Under the pieces are notes generated by a model, which saw only the letters and a list, made by a program, of their open reading frames with translations, did no database searches and was not told the DNA's origin. A stretch of 36,021 bases of DNA from Sandaracinus sp. GTDB taxonomy: Bacteria; Myxococcota_A; Polyangia; Polyangiales; Houyiibacteriaceae. The stretch covers positions 1 to 36,021 of the forward strand of contig PABA01000004.1 of assembly GCA_002699025.1 (NCBI GenBank), written 5' to 3'. Position numbers and translations under genes: made by a program. Below are positions 12,091-35,820 of this stretch, piece by piece (position 1 is the stretch's first letter; each line of letters opens with the position of its first letter).

Positions 12091-12490
12091 GCGGCGGGCG
12101 GCGGCGGCGGGGGGTCGGGGTTTCGTCGCCTTCGGCGACGACCGGCCTGCGGCCGGGGGGATGGGGGAACTGGGGCATGGGGATCGAGCGCGCCGCCGCG
12201 AGACCCGCTCCCGGCTCTCTCGGGCGGCGGGGAACGGTGGGCGGTGGTCGGCGGCGGCGGGGGGTCGGCGGCGGCGGGGGGTTGGGGGTGCCTTCGGCGA
12301 CGACCGGCCTGCGGCCGGGGGATGGGGGAACTGGGGCATGTGGATCGAGCGCGCCGCCGCGAGCCCTGCTCCGGGCTCTCTCGGGCGGCGGGGGACGACT
12401 GGGCGGCGGGCGGCGGCGGGGGCCGGGGTTTCGTCGCCTTCGGCGGCGACCGGCCTGCGGCCGGGGGGATGGGGAGCTGGGCGTGTCTGG
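12091..12490. repeat. Tandem array of about 146-162 bp units, three copies
   Basis: Anchor CCTTCGGCG followed by ACCGGCCTGCGGCCGGGGG recurs at 12129, 12291 and 12437 (spacing 162 and 146). Each unit includes a GGATGGGGGAACTGGGGC stretch, GATCGAGCGCGCCGCCGCGAG, CTCTCTCGGGCGGCGGGG and a variable GGCGGC run. Spacer length varies because of the GGCGGC tract. This is the 492-bp gap between the hydrolase start and the coding remnant; no gene is supported in it. Confidence 0.85.
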
Positions 12491-15077: not shown

Positions 15078-17254
15078 TCGCTCTCTCCCGTCTCCCCCGC
15101 GCCGGGCGTCTGCCGCAGCCGGAAGCGCTCGCTCGCGTAGACCTCGCGGAGCAGCGCGCCGATGTCGCCCTCGCTCGCCCGGAAGCGCTCCTCGAGCTCG
15201 CGCACCATGCAGGCGTCCGACTCGAGGGCCCCGTGCGCGAAGCGCCAGACCTGCCGCGCGAAGCAGTCGGGCGCGGCCTCCGACTCGGCCAGCCGCGCGC
15301 CCAGCTCGGGCAGGCTCGCGAAGGGCGCCTCCGTGTCCGTCCCGAAGCCCTCCACGTCCCGGAGCACGCCGCTCGGATCGATGGGCTGGCCGTTCTCCAC
15401 GTCACGGTAGCGGCCGTCCTGGTCGAAGCGCTCGAAGCCGAAGCCGAGGTCGTCGATGTACTGGTGGCAGCTGTAGCAGCGCGGGTTTTCCGTGTGCTGG
15501 CGGAAGCGCTCGCGCGTCGTCGCCGTCGGGTCCACGTCCGGCACGCCGCCGGCCTCGGGCGGGGGCGGCGGGAAGTCCTGGCAGAGCAGGCGCCGGCGGA
15601 GGAAGGTCCCGCGCTGGATCGGCGAGCTCTGGTCGGAGTGGGCGTAGCGGACGTGCAGGCTCGCGTGGCCGAGCACGCCGGCGCGCCGCTCCTCGGGCAG
15701 CGTCACGCGGCCCCAGTCGCCGGGCCCCTCGAGGCCGTAGTGCGCGGCCACCCGATCGTTGGCGACGGTCCAGTCGGCCGTGAGCAGGTCGCGGAAGCGC
15801 CCGCCCCCGAAGGCCACCTCGGCGACGAAGCGCTCGGTCTCCTCCACGAGGTCCGCCCGGAGCGCCGGGTCGAGGCCCCGCGTGAGCTCGCCGAGCCCCT
15901 CCACGCCGAGCCACTGGCGCGCGAAGACGCCGAGCTGCTCCCGCGCCCCCTCGTTGGCCAGGAGCCGGTCGACCCAGCGGCCCACGCCCTCGGCGTCGTC
16001 GAGCTCCCCGGCCGCGGCCGCGTCCAGGAGCGCGTCGCCCGGCGTCGTGCCGAGCAGGCCGTAGCTCAGGGCCGCGGCCATCTCCCAGCCGGTCAGGCGG
16101 AAGGCCCCCTCGTGCGCCTCGCCGACCTCGCTCCGGTAGAGGAAGTGCGGCGACGCGAGCAGGCCGTGGAGCGCGACCTGCCAGCCCTCCGCGCGGCTCG
16201 CCTCCCCGGTCGCCAGCGCCCCGTAGCGCGCCCGCTCCTCGTCCGTGAGCGGGCGCCGGAAGGCGCGCCGGCCGAAGGTGCGCACGAACTGCTCCGCGCA
16301 GCCCGCGTCGTCCCCCTCGCAGGGCACGAGCTCGACCACGCGCGCGCCCACCGCGTCCGCCACGCGCTTGGCGGCGCTCAGGTACTCCTGCGCGTGCACG
16401 CTCGTCACGACCGCCGGGTCCGCGGCGTTGTCGAAGGGGAAGGCCTCGGGCCGGGTCTCCACGGGCATGGCGCGCGTCAGGTCCGCGATCGCCACCGCGC
16501 CCCCGGGCTCGCCGCCGCCTGCGCACGCGACCTCGAGCACCGAGTTCGCGCCCCCGAAGCCGTCCGGCGCGGTCTCCGGGTTCGCCGGGTCCGTGATCCA
16601 CTCGCCCCCGTCGAGCACCAGCTTGTACTCGTGGCGCCCCTCCGGGACGACGCGCGTGAGCGTCCAGACGCCGCCCTCCGCGCGCATCGGCCAGGCCGCC
16701 GGATCCCAGCCGTTGAAGCTGCCGGCCACGTGCACCGAGCCGAGGCTCCGGCCGCCGGCGTCGTAGGTGAAGGTCGTGCCGTCCGTGCAGGGGTCCGGCC
16801 CGGTCTCCCTCATGCCGCCGAGCGGAGCGAGCAGGTCGCGGACCGTGGCCGCGTACTCGCGGCGCGTCAGCAAGCGCAGGCGCCGCGCCGGGAGCGGCGG
16901 GTCGTCGCAGAGCACCACGCCGTCGAGGCCCAGCACGTAGTCCGCGACGGCCTCCGCGCAGCCCCCCGTGCGGCACTCGCTCGGGTCGACGTAGGGCATG
17001 GTCTCGTCGATGTTCGCGACGAGCGCGTCGCGGCCGTCGGCCCAGGAGTACACGGCCGGGCCGAGGCCGCCCTCCCCCGCGTCGCCGTGGCAGCTCGCGC
17101 ACTGCTCCGCGTAGACGGCGGCGCCATCCCAGCTCTCCGGGCCCTCCGAGCCCGGCGGGAGGCCGGGGCCCGCGGGGGAGCCACCTCCGGCACACGCGAC
17201 GATCCACGGCGCGACGAGCGCCCCGATCCGCGACAGCCTGAGTCCTTCGGCCAC
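15074..17254 (-). CDS. DUF1587/1592/1588/1585 haem lipoprotein with embedded CBM48-like module
   Basis: 726 aa from the GTG at 17254, which has AAGGGG seven bases upstream; a GTG at 17260 is the alternative. The signal peptide ends at lipobox IVAC (Cys21). In order: cytochrome-c-like CASCH (52-56); DUF1587-like 'LLTRREYAATVRDLLAP' (128-144); an inserted starch/glycogen-binding CBM48/AMPK-type module from about 165 to 250 ('VHVAGSFNGWDPAAWPM', 'GRHEYKLVLDGGEWITDP'); DUF1595 'FGRRAFRRPLTDEERAR'; DUF1592 'LLASPHFLYRSEVGE'; DUF1588 with a second haem motif CYSCH (about 592-596) and 'LGFGFERFDQDGRYRD'; DUF1585 at the end. It is probably an outer-membrane-anchored redox protein acting on a polysaccharide-like or bound substrate. 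It is the first gene of the operon with DUF1552. Confidence 0.93.
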   Translation of the reverse strand: MAEGLRLSRIGALVAPWIVACAGGGSPAGPGLPPGSEGPESWDGAAVYAEQCASCHGDAGEGGLGPAVYSWADGRDALVANIDETMPYVDPSECRTGGCAEAVADYVLGLDGVVLCDDPPLPARRLRLLTRREYAATVRDLLAPLGGMRETGPDPCTDGTTFTYDAGGRSLGSVHVAGSFNGWDPAAWPMRAEGGVWTLTRVVPEGRHEYKLVLDGGEWITDPANPETAPDGFGGANSVLEVACAGGGEPGGAVAIADLTRAMPVETRPEAFPFDNAADPAVVTSVHAQEYLSAAKRVADAVGARVVELVPCEGDDAGCAEQFVRTFGRRAFRRPLTDEERARYGALATGEASRAEGWQVALHGLLASPHFLYRSEVGEAHEGAFRLTGWEMAAALSYGLLGTTPGDALLDAAAAGELDDAEGVGRWVDRLLANEGAREQLGVFARQWLGVEGLGELTRGLDPALRADLVEETERFVAEVAFGGGRFRDLLTADWTVANDRVAAHYGLEGPGDWGRVTLPEERRAGVLGHASLHVRYAHSDQSSPIQRGTFLRRRLLCQDFPPPPPEAGGVPDVDPTATTRERFRQHTENPRCYSCHQYIDDLGFGFERFDQDGRYRDVENGQPIDPSGVLRDVEGFGTDTEAPFASLPELGARLAESEAAPDCFARQVWRFAHGALESDACMVRELEERFRASEGDIGALLREVYASERFRLRQTPGAGETGESE

Positions 17255-17402
17255 GTGCACACCCCTTCTCGATTCGGCGGCGGACCCCCCGGCGTCACCG
17301 GGGAGACACCACTCCGCCCCGCCGACCCCGCCTCGCCAGCCTCGATCGGCCCCGGCTGGCCCAGAAGGCGCGGGAGGTCCGATCGAAATGCTGACGAAAC
17401 AT

Positions 17403-17422
17403 GTAACTCTCTTATGAGTTAC
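17403..17422. promoter_or_regulatory. Perfect inverted repeat, candidate operator
   Basis: GTAACTC-N6-GAGTTAC, seven perfect base pairs per arm around TCTTAT. It lies between the divergent DUF1592 operon and the TrmB-family regulator gene and covers the predicted -10 of the operon, the position expected for a repressor site. It stands out as AT-rich in a very GC-rich window. Binding by the neighbouring regulator is inference. Confidence 0.65.
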
Positions 17423-17440
17423 TTGCGTGCGGGGTGTCAA
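17411..17440 (-). promoter_or_regulatory. Predicted promoter of the DUF1592-DUF1552 operon
   Basis: On the minus strand a consensus -35 TTGACA (17440-17435) is followed by an 18-bp spacer and CATAAG (17416-17411) as -10. Initiation near 17404 would give a leader of about 150 nt before the GTG at 17254. The -10 sits in the centre of the inverted repeat 17403-17422. Confidence 0.6.
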
Positions 17441-17533: not shown

Positions 17534-18352
17534 GTGGCGGAGGAGGTCGAAGAGCGGGTGGTGGCTGCCATGCGGCAGCTGGGCTTCAACGCGACGGACG
17601 CGAAGGCGTACCTGGCGCTCCTGAAGCAGCACCCGGCGACGGGGTACGAGCTCGCGACGCGCTCGGGCGTGCCGCGCTCGGCCATCTACAACGTGCTCAA
17701 GCGCCTGCAGGGGCTCGGGCTGATCAACGCGGTCAACGAGAAGCCGGCGCGCTACGTGCCGCTCCCCCCGCAGAAGCTCTTCCAGCTCCTCGAGACGCGC
17801 TTCGGGCGCAACCTCGAGTCGCTGAAGGAGGGGCTCGAGGCGCTGAACGAGGAGCCGAACGGCTCGGTCACGTGGACCGTCGAGGGCTACGAGGCGATGC
17901 TCGAGCAGGCCGAGCAGCTCGTCGGCAAGGCCAAGCAGCGGGTCGTCGCGTCGCTCTGGGGGCGCGAGGCGGAGCAGCTCCAGAAGGCCTTCGAGGAGGC
18001 GGTCGAGCGCGGCGTGGAGGTCGTGCTCTTCAGCTTCACGCCGCTGCCCGACGAGGTCGGGACGCAGTTCAGCTACGGCATCGAGCCGGCCGACCTCGAG
18101 GAGCACTGGGAGCATCGGATCGTGCTGCTCGTCGACAAGCAGAACCTGCTGGTCGGGCGCGCGGAGGAGACGAGCGACAACCGGGCGGTGGTCACCGACG
18201 AGGTGTCGCTGATCGAGATGGCGATCTCGAACCTGGTGCTCGACCTGACGCTCTTCGGGGAGCGCCTGAAGGTCGACGTCTCGCACGTGGTCGAGTCGCT
18301 GACCGGGTGGCTCGCGCCGGTCGAGGCGCTGCTCGAGAAGTCGCGCAAGTAG
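17534..18352 (+). CDS. TrmB-family transcriptional regulator
   Basis: 272 aa from the GTG at 17534, with GGGAG six bases upstream; an in-frame ATG at 17570 is the alternative. Residues about 12-80 form the winged helix-turn-helix of the family ('LGFNATDAKAYLALLKQHP', 'TGYELATRSGVPRSAIYNVL', 'KRLQGLGLI'). A coiled-coil linker follows ('FQLLETRFGRNLESLKEGLEAL'), then a C-terminal phospholipase-D-like effector domain ('QRVVASLWGREAEQLQKAFEE', 'ERGVEVVLFSF') that binds sugars or other ligands in characterised TrmB proteins. It is divergent from the DUF1592 operon across 279 bp that contain a perfect inverted repeat, so it is the natural candidate to control that operon and possibly itself. TrmB proteins are better known in archaea but are also widespread in bacteria. 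Confidence 0.92.
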   Translation: MAEEVEERVVAAMRQLGFNATDAKAYLALLKQHPATGYELATRSGVPRSAIYNVLKRLQGLGLINAVNEKPARYVPLPPQKLFQLLETRFGRNLESLKEGLEALNEEPNGSVTWTVEGYEAMLEQAEQLVGKAKQRVVASLWGREAEQLQKAFEEAVERGVEVVLFSFTPLPDEVGTQFSYGIEPADLEEHWEHRIVLLVDKQNLLVGRAEETSDNRAVVTDEVSLIEMAISNLVLDLTLFGERLKVDVSHVVESLTGWLAPVEALLEKSRK

Positions 18353-18592: not shown

Positions 18593-20569
18593 ATGCCCCG
18601 ACCGATCCCGACGCGCCTTTCGCCCCTCGCCCTGCTCCTCGCCTGCGCCCTGACCCCGGCCTGCTCCGAGCCCGCGCCGGCCGCGCACGCGCCCTTCGAC
18701 ATCATCCCACCGGCCGACGGTGGCGTGGAGGAGACGGCGAGCGCATCGCAGGCCCTCTCGGAGCACCAGATCGACGGCTGGGGGCTGCCCGCCGGCTACC
18801 TCTCGCTCACCTACGACGACGGCCCCGGGGAAGGCACGCTGGAGATCGCCCGGTTCCTGGCCACCCGCGGGGTGCCGGCCACCTTCTTCGTGAACGGCTG
18901 CCACCTCGAGGGCGCCCCACCGGCCGACTCCAACGGCACCGGCTCCTGCATCCGCAACGAGTCGAGCTACCCGCACGGCTTCTACGCGGAGCTCATCCGC
19001 CTCGGTCATCGCGTCGGCAACCACACCCAGGACCACGCCGTCGTGACGGGAGCGCCTCCGAACACGCTCTACCAGCTCACCGAGAACCAGCGGACGCTCG
19101 ACGCCTTCATCGAAGACCAGGTCCGCCTCTTCCGTCCCCCGGGCAACGGCTGGTCGGACGCGACCTGGGAGCTCGTGAAGGACGACCCCTACGTCGGCAC
19201 GCTCCTCGGCCCGATCTACCACACGGTCCCCGGGCCCGCGTCCCGCCCCGAACACGACTACGGCTGCCTCGAGCAGGTGCACATGTCCTCCGCCGAGTGC
19301 ACGGACGTCATGCTCCGGCACGTCGCCCGGGACGGCAGCACGCACGGCGTGGTCCAGCTCCACGACCGACGACCGACGTCCTGGGAGACGCGCAAGGCGG
19401 TCTCGCTGACGAAGCGGCTCATCCCGGCGCTCCAGGAGCTCGGCTACACCTTCGTTCCCCTGGACGCGATCCCCGGCGTCCTCGGACCGCGCCGCTTCGA
19501 CGAGGAGGCGCTCTCGGTCTGGACGCACGAGTTCGGCGACGACGTCGGCTGGGACGTCGCCCGGAGCCACTGGGGCTCGCTCCGCTTCGCCGATCTCCAG
19601 GGCGACGGCCGCCTCGAGCTCTGCGGGCGCGGCAACACCGGCGTCCGCTGCGTGAGCACGTACCACCTCGGCAGGCGCGCCGGCTTCACCTCCGCGCGCA
19701 CCTACACGGCCGCCTTCTCCGACGCCGACGGGTACCTCCCGGATCGGTACGGCGCGACGCTGATGTTCGGGGACCTCGACGCCGACGGGGACGACGACAT
19801 CTGCGCGCGCTACCGGGACGGCGTGTACTGCGTGAAGAGCCTCTGGGACTCGGGCGTGGGTTTCCAGCAGGTCCCCGTGCGCTGGACGCGCGACTTCTCC
19901 GACGGGCGCGGCTGGAGCCAAGAGCGCTACTGGGGCTCGCTCCGCCTCGTCGACGTCGACGGCGACGACCGCGCCGACCTCTGCGGACGGAGCAACGCGG
20001 GCATCGTCTGCGCGCGGGCGCGGCGCAGGGGCGGCTTCGGGCCGCTCGAGGGCTGGCTCGACGACGACTTCGGCGACGACGACGACTCGCGCCTCCGCCA
20101 CCTGAGCTACGCGACCACGCTGATGTTCGGGGACATCGACGGCGACGACGACGCCGACGTCTGCATGCGCAAGCCCCTCGGCATCTACTGCGCCCCGAAC
20201 CTCGGCGGCCGCTTCGGCGCCACGCGGCTCTGGAGCGGTCGCCGCTTCTCGGACCGGGACGATTGGCGTCGGAGGCGCTCGAGCTGGGGCTCGCTCCAGC
20301 TCGTGGACGTCGACGGCGACGGAGACGCGGACGTGTGCGGGCGAGCCGTGACCGGTGTGGTCTGTGCCTTCTCCAACGGCGAGGAGTTCCGTCCCTACCA
20401 GCACCTCACGAACGTCGAGCTCAGCAACCAGGCCGGCTGGGGCGCCGACCGCTACGGCTCGACGATGCAGATCGGGCGGCTGAACCGGGACGCGGTCGCC
20501 GACGTGTGTGTACGGCGGCGGCGCGGCGTCTGGTGCACGCACGGCTCGAGCGCGCTGGCGGCCCACTGA
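18593..20569 (+). CDS. Exported polysaccharide deacetylase (CE4) fused to VCBS-like Cys repeats
   Basis: 658 aa. The signal peptide is followed by Cys24 (or Cys18), so lipidation is possible. Residues 68-295 are a NodB-type CE4 domain with all main motifs: 'TYDDGP' (73-78, base and metal Asp), 'HTQDH' (144-148, metal His), 'RPPG' (181-184) and 'LHD' (256-258). Family members remove N- or O-acetyl groups from chitin-like glycans, peptidoglycan or xylan. Residues about 310-650 hold six repeats of about 55 residues with 'YWGSLRLVDVDGDDRADLCGR' type cores: a DxDxDG calcium-binding-like loop, then two Cys. These match FG-GAP/VCBS beta-propeller blades, probably a substrate or surface anchor, each blade carrying a likely disulfide. 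It is complete; the native substrate is unknown. Confidence 0.93.
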   Translation: MPRPIPTRLSPLALLLACALTPACSEPAPAAHAPFDIIPPADGGVEETASASQALSEHQIDGWGLPAGYLSLTYDDGPGEGTLEIARFLATRGVPATFFVNGCHLEGAPPADSNGTGSCIRNESSYPHGFYAELIRLGHRVGNHTQDHAVVTGAPPNTLYQLTENQRTLDAFIEDQVRLFRPPGNGWSDATWELVKDDPYVGTLLGPIYHTVPGPASRPEHDYGCLEQVHMSSAECTDVMLRHVARDGSTHGVVQLHDRRPTSWETRKAVSLTKRLIPALQELGYTFVPLDAIPGVLGPRRFDEEALSVWTHEFGDDVGWDVARSHWGSLRFADLQGDGRLELCGRGNTGVRCVSTYHLGRRAGFTSARTYTAAFSDADGYLPDRYGATLMFGDLDADGDDDICARYRDGVYCVKSLWDSGVGFQQVPVRWTRDFSDGRGWSQERYWGSLRLVDVDGDDRADLCGRSNAGIVCARARRRGGFGPLEGWLDDDFGDDDDSRLRHLSYATTLMFGDIDGDDDADVCMRKPLGIYCAPNLGGRFGATRLWSGRRFSDRDDWRRRRSSWGSLQLVDVDGDGDADVCGRAVTGVVCAFSNGEEFRPYQHLTNVELSNQAGWGADRYGSTMQIGRLNRDAVADVCVRRRRGVWCTHGSSALAAH

Positions 20570-22333: not shown

Positions 22334-22756
22334 ATGGGACGCATCTCCGGGACGAGCTGGGTGCGGGGGCTCCTCTTCGCCCTCTGCGCGGGGAGCTTCG
22401 CCACGCTCGCCGTCGCGCAGGGCAGCGGGCGCGGCGCCGCCGTCGTCGCGCGGAAGGTCGGCGCGAGCGGGAACGATCTCCGCTACCTCTGCCAGAGCAG
22501 CTGCGGCTCCATCCGGAACGACGACACGCGCTACCTCTGCCAGGGCAGCTGCGGCTCCATCCGCGACAACGACGCGCGCTACTACTGCCAGAGCAGCTGC
22601 GGCTCGAGCCGCGACAACGATCTCCGCTACCTCTGCCAAGGCAGCTGCGGCTCCATCCGCGACAACGACACGCGCTACCTCTGCCAGGGCAGCTGCGGCT
22701 CCATCCGCGACGACGACCTCCGCTACTTCTGCCAGGGCAGCTGCGGCTCCATCTGA
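22334..22756 (+). CDS. Exported protein of six exact 16-residue Cys repeats
   Basis: 140 aa, ATG start with AAGAGGA (22323-22329) four bases upstream. A signal peptide (hydrophobic 'LLFALCAGSFATLAVAQ') directs it out of the cytoplasm. Residues about 48-140 are six units of exactly 48 bp / 16 residues, first bases at 22481, 22529, 22577, 22625, 22673 and 22721, with consensus R-Y-[LYF]-C-Q-[SG]-S-C-G-S-[IS]-R-[DN]-[ND]-D-x, giving 12 Cys in CxxxC pairs. After export these could form disulfides or bind metal. The DNA copies are nearly identical, so the gene is likely length-variable. I recognise no named family; a multi-core peptide precursor is conceivable but nothing nearby looks like a maturase. 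Confidence 0.85.
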   Translation: MGRISGTSWVRGLLFALCAGSFATLAVAQGSGRGAAVVARKVGASGNDLRYLCQSSCGSIRNDDTRYLCQGSCGSIRDNDARYYCQSSCGSSRDNDLRYLCQGSCGSIRDNDTRYLCQGSCGSIRDDDLRYFCQGSCGSI

Positions 22757-24596: not shown

Positions 24597-25236
24597 CGCG
24601 GCTCCGTGGGGCCGGGCCACGGGGCAGAGATGGGAGCGCTCCCCCGGCCGGGCGGGGGCTGAAGACGGGCGGCGGCGGAAGTCGTCCAGATGCGCGGTGT
24701 CGTTCGTTCTCCATCTCCGGCGGCGCTTCGGGGTGGCGGGGTGCTTGAGCGCGACTCGCGGGAGACGGCTCCGTGGGTGGGTGGGCTACGGGGCAGAGAT
24801 GGGGGCGCTCCCCCGGCCGGGCGCGCGGTGAAGACGGACGGCGGTGGAGGTCGTCCAGATGCGCGGCGTCGCTCGTTCTCCATCTCCGGCGGCGCTTCGG
24901 GCTGACCGCACGCCTGGACAGGACTCGGGGGAGGCGGCTCCGTGGGCGGGCTACGGGGCAGAGATGGGGGCGCTCCCCCGGCCGGGCGGGGGCTGAAGTC
25001 GGGCGGCGGCGGAGGTCGTCCAGATGCGCGGCGTCGTTCGTTCTCCATCTCCGGCGGCGCTTCGGGCTGACCGTACGCCTGGACAGGACTCGGGGGAGGC
25101 GGCTCCGTGGGTGGGCTACGGGCAGAGATGGGGGCGCTCCCTCGGCCGGGCGGGCGGTGACGACGGGTGGCGGCGAAAGCCGTCCAGATGCGCGGCGTCG
25201 CTCGTTCTCCATCTCCGGCGGCGCTTCGGGCTGACG
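24597..25236. repeat. Tandem array of about 165-bp units, four copies
   Basis: GGGCAGAGATGGG starts units at 24622, 24791, 24956 and 25120 (spacing 169, 165, 164). Each has GCGCTCCCCCGGCCGGGCG, CGTCCAGATGCGCGG, TCGTTCTCCATCTCCGGCGG and a GGCTCCGTGGG junction. A long minus-strand frame crosses it, but the unit lengths are not all multiples of three and the bias is not coding-like, so I treat it as non-coding. Confidence 0.9.
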
Positions 25237-35108: not shown

Positions 35109-35173
35109 GGCCGAGGAAGGCGGGAGCCTTCCTCGGCGGGGGGGCTGCCGGGGGGCGCGGCGGGGGAGGGGGC

Positions 35174-35820
35174 GGTGGGCCCACGCGCTGGGGCTTCGGG
35201 GAGCGGGGGAGGATGGGGGTCCGGGGCCGGGGAACTCGACCACGGTCGGCACGTGGTCGGCGGGGACGCTCGACCCTTCGTCCTCGTGCACGTGCACGTG
35301 CTCGATGCTCGACTCGGCAGACGGAGCGCTTCGCGTGGCGGCGCGGTGGGTCCACGCGCTGGGGCTTCGGGGAGCGGGGGGAGATGGGGATCCGGGGCCG
35401 GGGAGCTCGACCACGGTCGGCATGTGGTCGGCGCGGACGCTCGACCCTTCGTCCTCGTCCTCGTGCACGTGCACGTGCTCGACGCTCGACTCGGCAGACG
35501 GGGCGCTTCGCGTGGCGGCGCGGTGGGTCCACGCGCTGGGGCTTCGGGGCGCGGGGGAGACGGGGGCCCGGGGCCGGGGAACTGGGCCACGGTCGGCGGG
35601 GACGCTCGACCCTTCGTCCTCGTCCTCGTGCACGTGCACGTGCTCGAGGCTCGACTCGGCAGACGGGGCGCTTCGCGTGGCGGACGCGCCTCGCGCTCTC
35701 GGCGGAGCACGTGGTCGGCGGGGACGCGCGACCCTTCGTCCTCGTCCTCGTGCACGAGGCTCGACTCGGCCAACGGGACGATTCGGGGGGCGCGCGGCGG
35801 CGCGGTGGGTCCACGCGACG
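35174..35820. repeat. Tandem array of about 171-177 bp units, three copies plus a partial
   Basis: GGTGGG[CT]CCACGCG starts units at 35174, 35345, 35522 and 35804 (spacing 171, 177, 282). Each has GGGGCTTCGGGG, GGTCGGC, GACGCTCGACCCTTCGTCC, CTCGTGCACGTGCACGTGCT and CTCGACTCGGC. Internal CCTCGT and GCACGT tracts vary in copy number. The third unit has an extra partial duplication around 35700-35780. It fills the 0.9-kb stretch after the membrane protein; no gene is supported. Confidence 0.88.

Follow-up and report, generated by a model that had tools for sequence, protein, structure and literature searches.

A candidate TrmB operator at the promoter of a DUF1592-DUF1552 operon and upstream of alpha-glucan and glycolytic genes in Polyangiales

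Archaeal regulators of the TrmB family repress transcription when they bind over or downstream of a promoter and activate it when they bind upstream (PMC4158304, PMC4706686). TrmBL1 of Pyrococcus furiosus and Tgr of Thermococcus kodakarensis act through one palindromic operator that is common to glycolytic, amylase, and sugar-uptake genes (PMC4158304, PMC4706686). The open-access literature, to which our search was confined, describes TrmB regulators in archaea, and in it we found no bacterial TrmB regulon, no report of an operator of the form GTAACTC-N6-GAGTTAC, and no paper in which DUF1592 and DUF1552 occur together; the papers that contain both arms of this motif as strings were, judged by title, unrelated. 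We know of almost no described function for the DUF1592 and DUF1552 proteins.

Here we analyze that palindrome in a window of 36,021 nucleotides (the whole stretch of DNA under study) from a Sandaracinus sp. genome, in which it lies between a DUF1592-DUF1552 operon and a divergent gene for a TrmB-family regulator (Table 1). In our view the palindrome is very probably the operator of this TrmB protein, which would repress the DUF1592 operon as part of an alpha-glucan and glycolysis regulon and would respond to a ligand derived from alpha-glucan.

Table 1. Locations of the features of the locus in the window
Feature	Position	Strand	Basis
DUF1552 (HXXSHH) gene, 460 aa	13695..15077	-	Domain/ORF analysis
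DUF1592-type gene, 726 aa	15074..17254	-	Pfam
AMPK1_CBM (CBM48-like) glycogen/starch-binding module, residues 160-243 of the DUF1592 protein	16526..16777	-	Pfam
Palindrome GTAACTC-N6-GAGTTAC (candidate TrmB operator)	17403..17422	.	Sequence; exact recurrence in 33 genomes, all TrmB+
-10 hexamer CATAAG, within the candidate operator	17411..17416 (17416-17411)	-	Sequence, 18-bp spacer
-35 hexamer TTGACA, DUF1592 operon promoter	17435..17440 (17440-17435)	-	Sequence; TTGACG kept in G006 and G007 orthologues
trmB-family regulator gene, 272 aa, divergent from the DUF1592 operon	17534..18352	+	Pfam; AlphaFold model

Read directly, the site is GTAACTC TCTTAT GAGTTAC, and with one mismatch its arms reach 10 bp (CATGTAACTC...GAGTTACTTG, 17400-17425). 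The preliminary description had reported the palindrome, its overlap with CATAAG, a TTGACA at 18 bp on the minus strand, and the divergent layout of TrmB and DUF1592-DUF1552, all of which the sequence bears out. Seen in this single window the palindrome is weak evidence, because 22 of 100 shuffles reach the one site with up to three mismatches that the window holds (0.24 expected), and because perfect 7-bp inverted repeats with gaps of 3 to 10 are common there (76 versus 69 in shuffles, at a window GC of 74%). Such repeats with arms below 50% GC numbered 4 versus 0.2 expected. Its weight comes from related genomes. That the palindrome is a chance repeat, as the abundance of 7-bp inverted repeats might suggest, has a negligible probability in our judgment, since the same 14 bases recur genome-wide solely together with TrmB, upstream of functionally coherent genes. 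That it acts ahead of the operon as an RNA hairpin or an intrinsic terminator, as which a terminator scan lists it (minus strand, stem 7, loop 6), is scarcely more credible: the output of that scan was near the chance rate (2 found versus 1.8 expected), the tail (ATGTTTCGTC) has no T-run, the palindrome sits in a promoter, and changes at position 3 in relatives are not compensated on the opposite arm.

We searched 183 genomes of the order with the exact 14-base pattern from the window, unchanged, and with the reversed pattern as the control; presence of the TrmB subfamily was called at E ≤ 1e-20. The exact motif occurred at 64 sites in 33 genomes, and the control at 2 sites. TrmB was present in 54 genomes and absent from 129. 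All sites fell in the former group (33/54 versus 0/129; Fisher 2e-22), and the same held by genus (21/30 versus 0/53; 6e-13), with the limit that these P values do not reflect independent events, because the genomes are related. The exact motif was absent from 21 of the 54 TrmB+ genomes. Relaxed to GTNACTC-N6-GAGTNAC, the pattern gave 11 sites in G006 and 10 in G007, with none for the control. Exact or one-mismatch sites lie close upstream of trmB itself in G000, in G009, and in five Myxococcota MAGs (L170, L171, L172, L178, and L221); the TrmB of G009 is only 49% identical, yet the same palindrome stands about 60 bp before its gene. The trmB promoters of G006 and G010 had no site, and an alignment of trmB upstream regions revealed nothing. 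Co-occurrence of this kind would also be seen if another transcription factor of the same phylogenetic spread, inherited together with TrmB, bound the palindrome and TrmB were a bystander. We consider this improbable, given that 33 of 33 motif-bearing genomes carry TrmB, that the site repeatedly adjoins trmB in several genera, and that the targets are of classic TrmB types (PMC4706686).

Relatives of the regulator also occur in Neomarinimicrobiota and Calditrichota, several with a near-perfect site located some 70 bp upstream of trmB; in five Neomarinimicrobiota-type MAGs (L202, L209, L217, L227, and L241) a one-mismatch GTAACTC-N6-GAGTTAT is found about 70 bp before the gene for a 33-37% identical TrmB. 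Use of the operator outside Myxococcota is only suggestive, because genome-wide motif counts in the 16 genomes behind the Neomarinimicrobiota- and Calditrichota-type TrmB loci were overall not above the control.

Orthologous promoters could be compared in genomes with and without the regulator. Orthologues of the DUF1592 gene with its carbohydrate-binding module (DUF1592-CBM) occur in both groups, and their promoters carried a site with zero to three mismatches in 10 of 10 testable TrmB+ genomes (G000, G006, G007, G050, G073, G123, G154, G168, G178, and G179; G182 was left out because of a contig edge), whereas the best match in 13 of 13 TrmB- genomes had at least six mismatches (Fisher 2e-6, calculated on 9 TrmB+ versus 13 TrmB-). 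Class I aldolase is found in most genomes of the order; its promoters held sites with up to three mismatches, mostly 90-125 bp upstream, in 13 of 36 TrmB+ genomes versus 1 of 50 TrmB- genomes (p 3e-5). Thus, the search for the palindrome upstream of homologous operons, proposed earlier as a check, found that the site follows TrmB across the order and not merely the operon. The preliminary description had also held that absence of the palindrome from loci keeping both regulator and operon would count against an operator. G007 keeps the divergent pair (DUF1592, C603:5252-7315, minus strand; trmB, C603:7901-8698, plus strand), and its intergenic region retains two degenerate sites, with the first spaced from a TTGACG -35 element just as in the window. 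Upstream of DUF1592 in both G006 and G007 the two sites are in tandem, 22 bp apart, and TTGACG lies 11-12 bp upstream of the first, matching TTGACA in the window.

We retrieved the flanks of 61 exact sites and identified the facing genes by Pfam and NCBIfam on representatives. The largest groups were phosphofructokinase (8, one typed as PPi dependent), glycogen/alpha-glucan phosphorylase (7), and GH13 alpha-amylases (7), several of which carry CBM48/AMPK1_CBM modules. Other exact sites face LamB porins (3), pyruvate kinase (2), class I aldolase (2), GH57, a CBM21 protein, enolase, GAPDH, glutamate synthase (5), DUF6209 proteins, trmB, and an aldo/keto reductase divergent from phosphofructokinase; about one quarter face genes without an assigned identity. 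The relaxed pattern in G006 and G007 brings in additional copies of pyruvate kinase, enolase, GAPDH (with its site 315 bp upstream), PEP carboxylase, and glutamate synthase. In five genomes (L080, L107, L112, L113, and L116) the candidate operator stands 47-54 bp before the glutamate synthase gene gltB, which would link a carbon regulator to nitrogen assimilation. These coherent targets, together with the co-occurrence, bear out the earlier proposal of a TrmB operator and a carbohydrate signal; its restriction to a single operon did not stand, since the sites point to a genome-wide alpha-glucan and glycolysis regulon.

One exact site is present in the genome from which the window comes. Sites with one mismatch precede glycogen phosphorylase (C71:8319) and class I aldolase (C116:4149), and those with two mismatches precede a LamB porin, a CBM21-like protein, a GDE-like glycosidase, and succinyl-CoA synthetase. 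Individual weak sites in this genome may be false, because those with up to two mismatches number 12 versus 7 for the control, barely to modestly more. Two paralogous lipoprotein-like putative esterases (PF00756; L126 and L127) in the same genome have GTGACTC-N6-GAGTGAC right at the start codon.

The position of the site bears on the direction of control. In the window the -10 element overlaps the palindrome; a generic sigma-70 scan of the window did not return this TTGACA/CATAAG promoter, because it accepts only T as the sixth base of the -10. Since the site covers the -10 and the start region of the DUF1592-DUF1552 operon, bound TrmB should sterically block RNA polymerase. The protein might instead bind here but activate, or chiefly autoregulate trmB, so that the -10 overlap would not mean repression. 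Archaeal TrmB proteins do either, depending on site position (PMC4158304, PMC4706686), at the gltB promoter and some of those of glgP a -10-like element apparently follows the site 30-55 bp further downstream, and the site is in a shared divergent intergenic region. We nevertheless hold this to be rather unlikely: the -10 of the window is inside the site, 18 bp from a consensus TTGACA; G006 and G007 keep TTGACR at a distance of 11-12 bp from the site, a position that would exclude polymerase; and we saw no convincing promoter on the trmB side. A positional test of -10 elements against sites, for activated versus repressed targets, gave no significant enrichment. Alongside repression of the DUF1592 operon, TrmB may control trmB too, because the site is in the region that both genes share.

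The regulator has the fold and logic of the TrmB family. Its winged helix matches PF01978 (E 3.7e-21; 75.2 bits, above the cut-off of 25.6), and its C-terminal Regulator_TrmB/PLD-like effector domain matches PF11495 (2.3e-5; 24.2 bits, above the cut-off of 22.2) over profile positions 3-118 of 233 only. The AlphaFold model (pLDDT 89) resembles 2f5t, the TrmB sugar-binding domain (Z 15.9, rmsd 2.6, 137 of 233 residues), and also matches 3qph (TrmB) and TrmBL2 (5box, 5bpd). Sequence alignment with 3qph spans only its residues 5-164; the structural match, as one of overall fold, reaches residue 328 (the sugar contacts are G320 and E326 in archaeal numbering). The full-length archaeal equivalogs of sugar-sensing TrmB (NF040851, NF047390, and NF047392) were matched at 42-62 bits, below their cut-offs of 500-650, and over about residues 3-166 of the regulator. 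Because the protein has 272 aa versus about 338-342 aa in archaeal sugar-sensing TrmB, it may respond to something other than a free sugar. The residues of the recognition helix, PRSAxYxVLxRL, are invariant across 29 orthologues.

The DUF1592-type protein has a cytochrome c-like N terminus followed by DUF1587, AMPK1_CBM, DUF1595, DUF1592, DUF1588, and DUF1585; without the binding module these DUFs are the PSCyt/PSD domain set. AMPK1_CBM-like modules also precede GH13 catalytic domains in other site-bearing targets. The ATG of DUF1552 overlaps the TGA of DUF1592 by 4 bp (ATGA). Given its starch/glycogen-binding module and cytochrome c-like domain, the DUF1592 protein probably belongs to an extracytoplasmic alpha-glucan branch. 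Selenocysteine in DUF1592 orthologues was considered and rejected: in-frame TGA codons, where located (three loci), are at the extreme C terminus and look like true stops. The gene next after trmB (18593-20569, plus strand) encodes a carbohydrate-related polysaccharide deacetylase fused to FG-GAP repeats. Elsewhere in the window, a small predicted protein (ORF 22334-22756, plus strand) contains an in-frame tandem 48-bp repeat at 22472-22753, about six copies of a 16-residue Cys-containing unit (RYLCQGSCGSIRDND-like), and GC-rich tandem arrays at 12091-12423, 24598-25235, and 35172-35688 have units of 161-171 bp that are 88-89% alike, the unit length being alike at all three places.

From these data we infer the following model. 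TrmB, presumably as a dimer, would bind GTNACTC-N6-GAGTNAC directly through its conserved recognition helix, and the same protein and site would unite in one regulon the genes of alpha-glucan use (amylases, LamB porins, starch-binding proteins, and glycogen phosphorylase) and of glycolysis (phosphofructokinase, class I aldolase, GAPDH, enolase, and pyruvate kinase), sometimes with glutamate synthase. The probable ligand of the C-terminal PLD-like domain is a sugar or sugar phosphate released when alpha-glucan is broken down, and its presence would alter DNA binding. More broadly, it seems likely that TrmB is a global regulator of glycolysis and alpha-glucan use in bacteria (Polyangiales, other Myxococcota, and possibly Neomarinimicrobiota and Calditrichota) that works through an operator of its own, GTNACTC-N6-GAGTNAC, and that its control assigns the DUF1592/DUF1552 pair, with its starch-binding module and cytochrome c-like domain, to an alpha-glucan pathway outside the cytoplasm. 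If so, one short motif would predict switching between carbohydrate and other carbon in a large, mostly uncultured bacterial group, DUF1592/DUF1552 proteins would gain a testable physiological context, and one regulator family could be compared cleanly on archaeal and bacterial transcription machinery.

Each of the closest described TrmB systems resembles this one in part. TrmBL2 (5box, 5bpd), at about 264 aa, is similar in length and fold to the regulator here, but it is an abundant DNA-binding protein of the chromatin type and has no specific palindrome (PMC4158304). The mal operon repressor TrmB of Thermococcus litoralis and P. furiosus shares the repression by promoter overlap that we propose here, an alpha-glucan/maltodextrin theme, and the effector fold (2f5t); it differs in its operator (TACT-N3-AGTA), in controlling ABC-transporter operons and not a genome-wide regulon, and in its longer sugar-binding domain. 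TrmB of Halobacterium salinarum and Haloarcula hispanica controls central carbon genes, as proposed here, and the H. salinarum operator TACT-N7-8-GAGTA has the ACT...GAGT core in common with ours (PMC4158304, PMC10817205), whereas arm sequence and spacing differ, the regulon is centered on gluconeogenesis, and the promoters are archaeal. TrmBL1 and Tgr are proteins of about 340 aa, versus 272 aa here, that work on archaeal BRE/TATA promoters and not on sigma-type -35/-10 promoters, and their operator, the Thermococcales glycolytic motif (TGM; TATCAC-N5-GTGATA), is not the GTAACTC-N6-GAGTTAC found here (PMC4158304). By analogy, the Thermococcales arrangement of one palindromic operator common to glycolytic and alpha-glucan genes is found here as well. 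Our results thus support the view that the operator is new and that the regulon is the bacterial counterpart of the archaeal TrmB glycolytic regulons.
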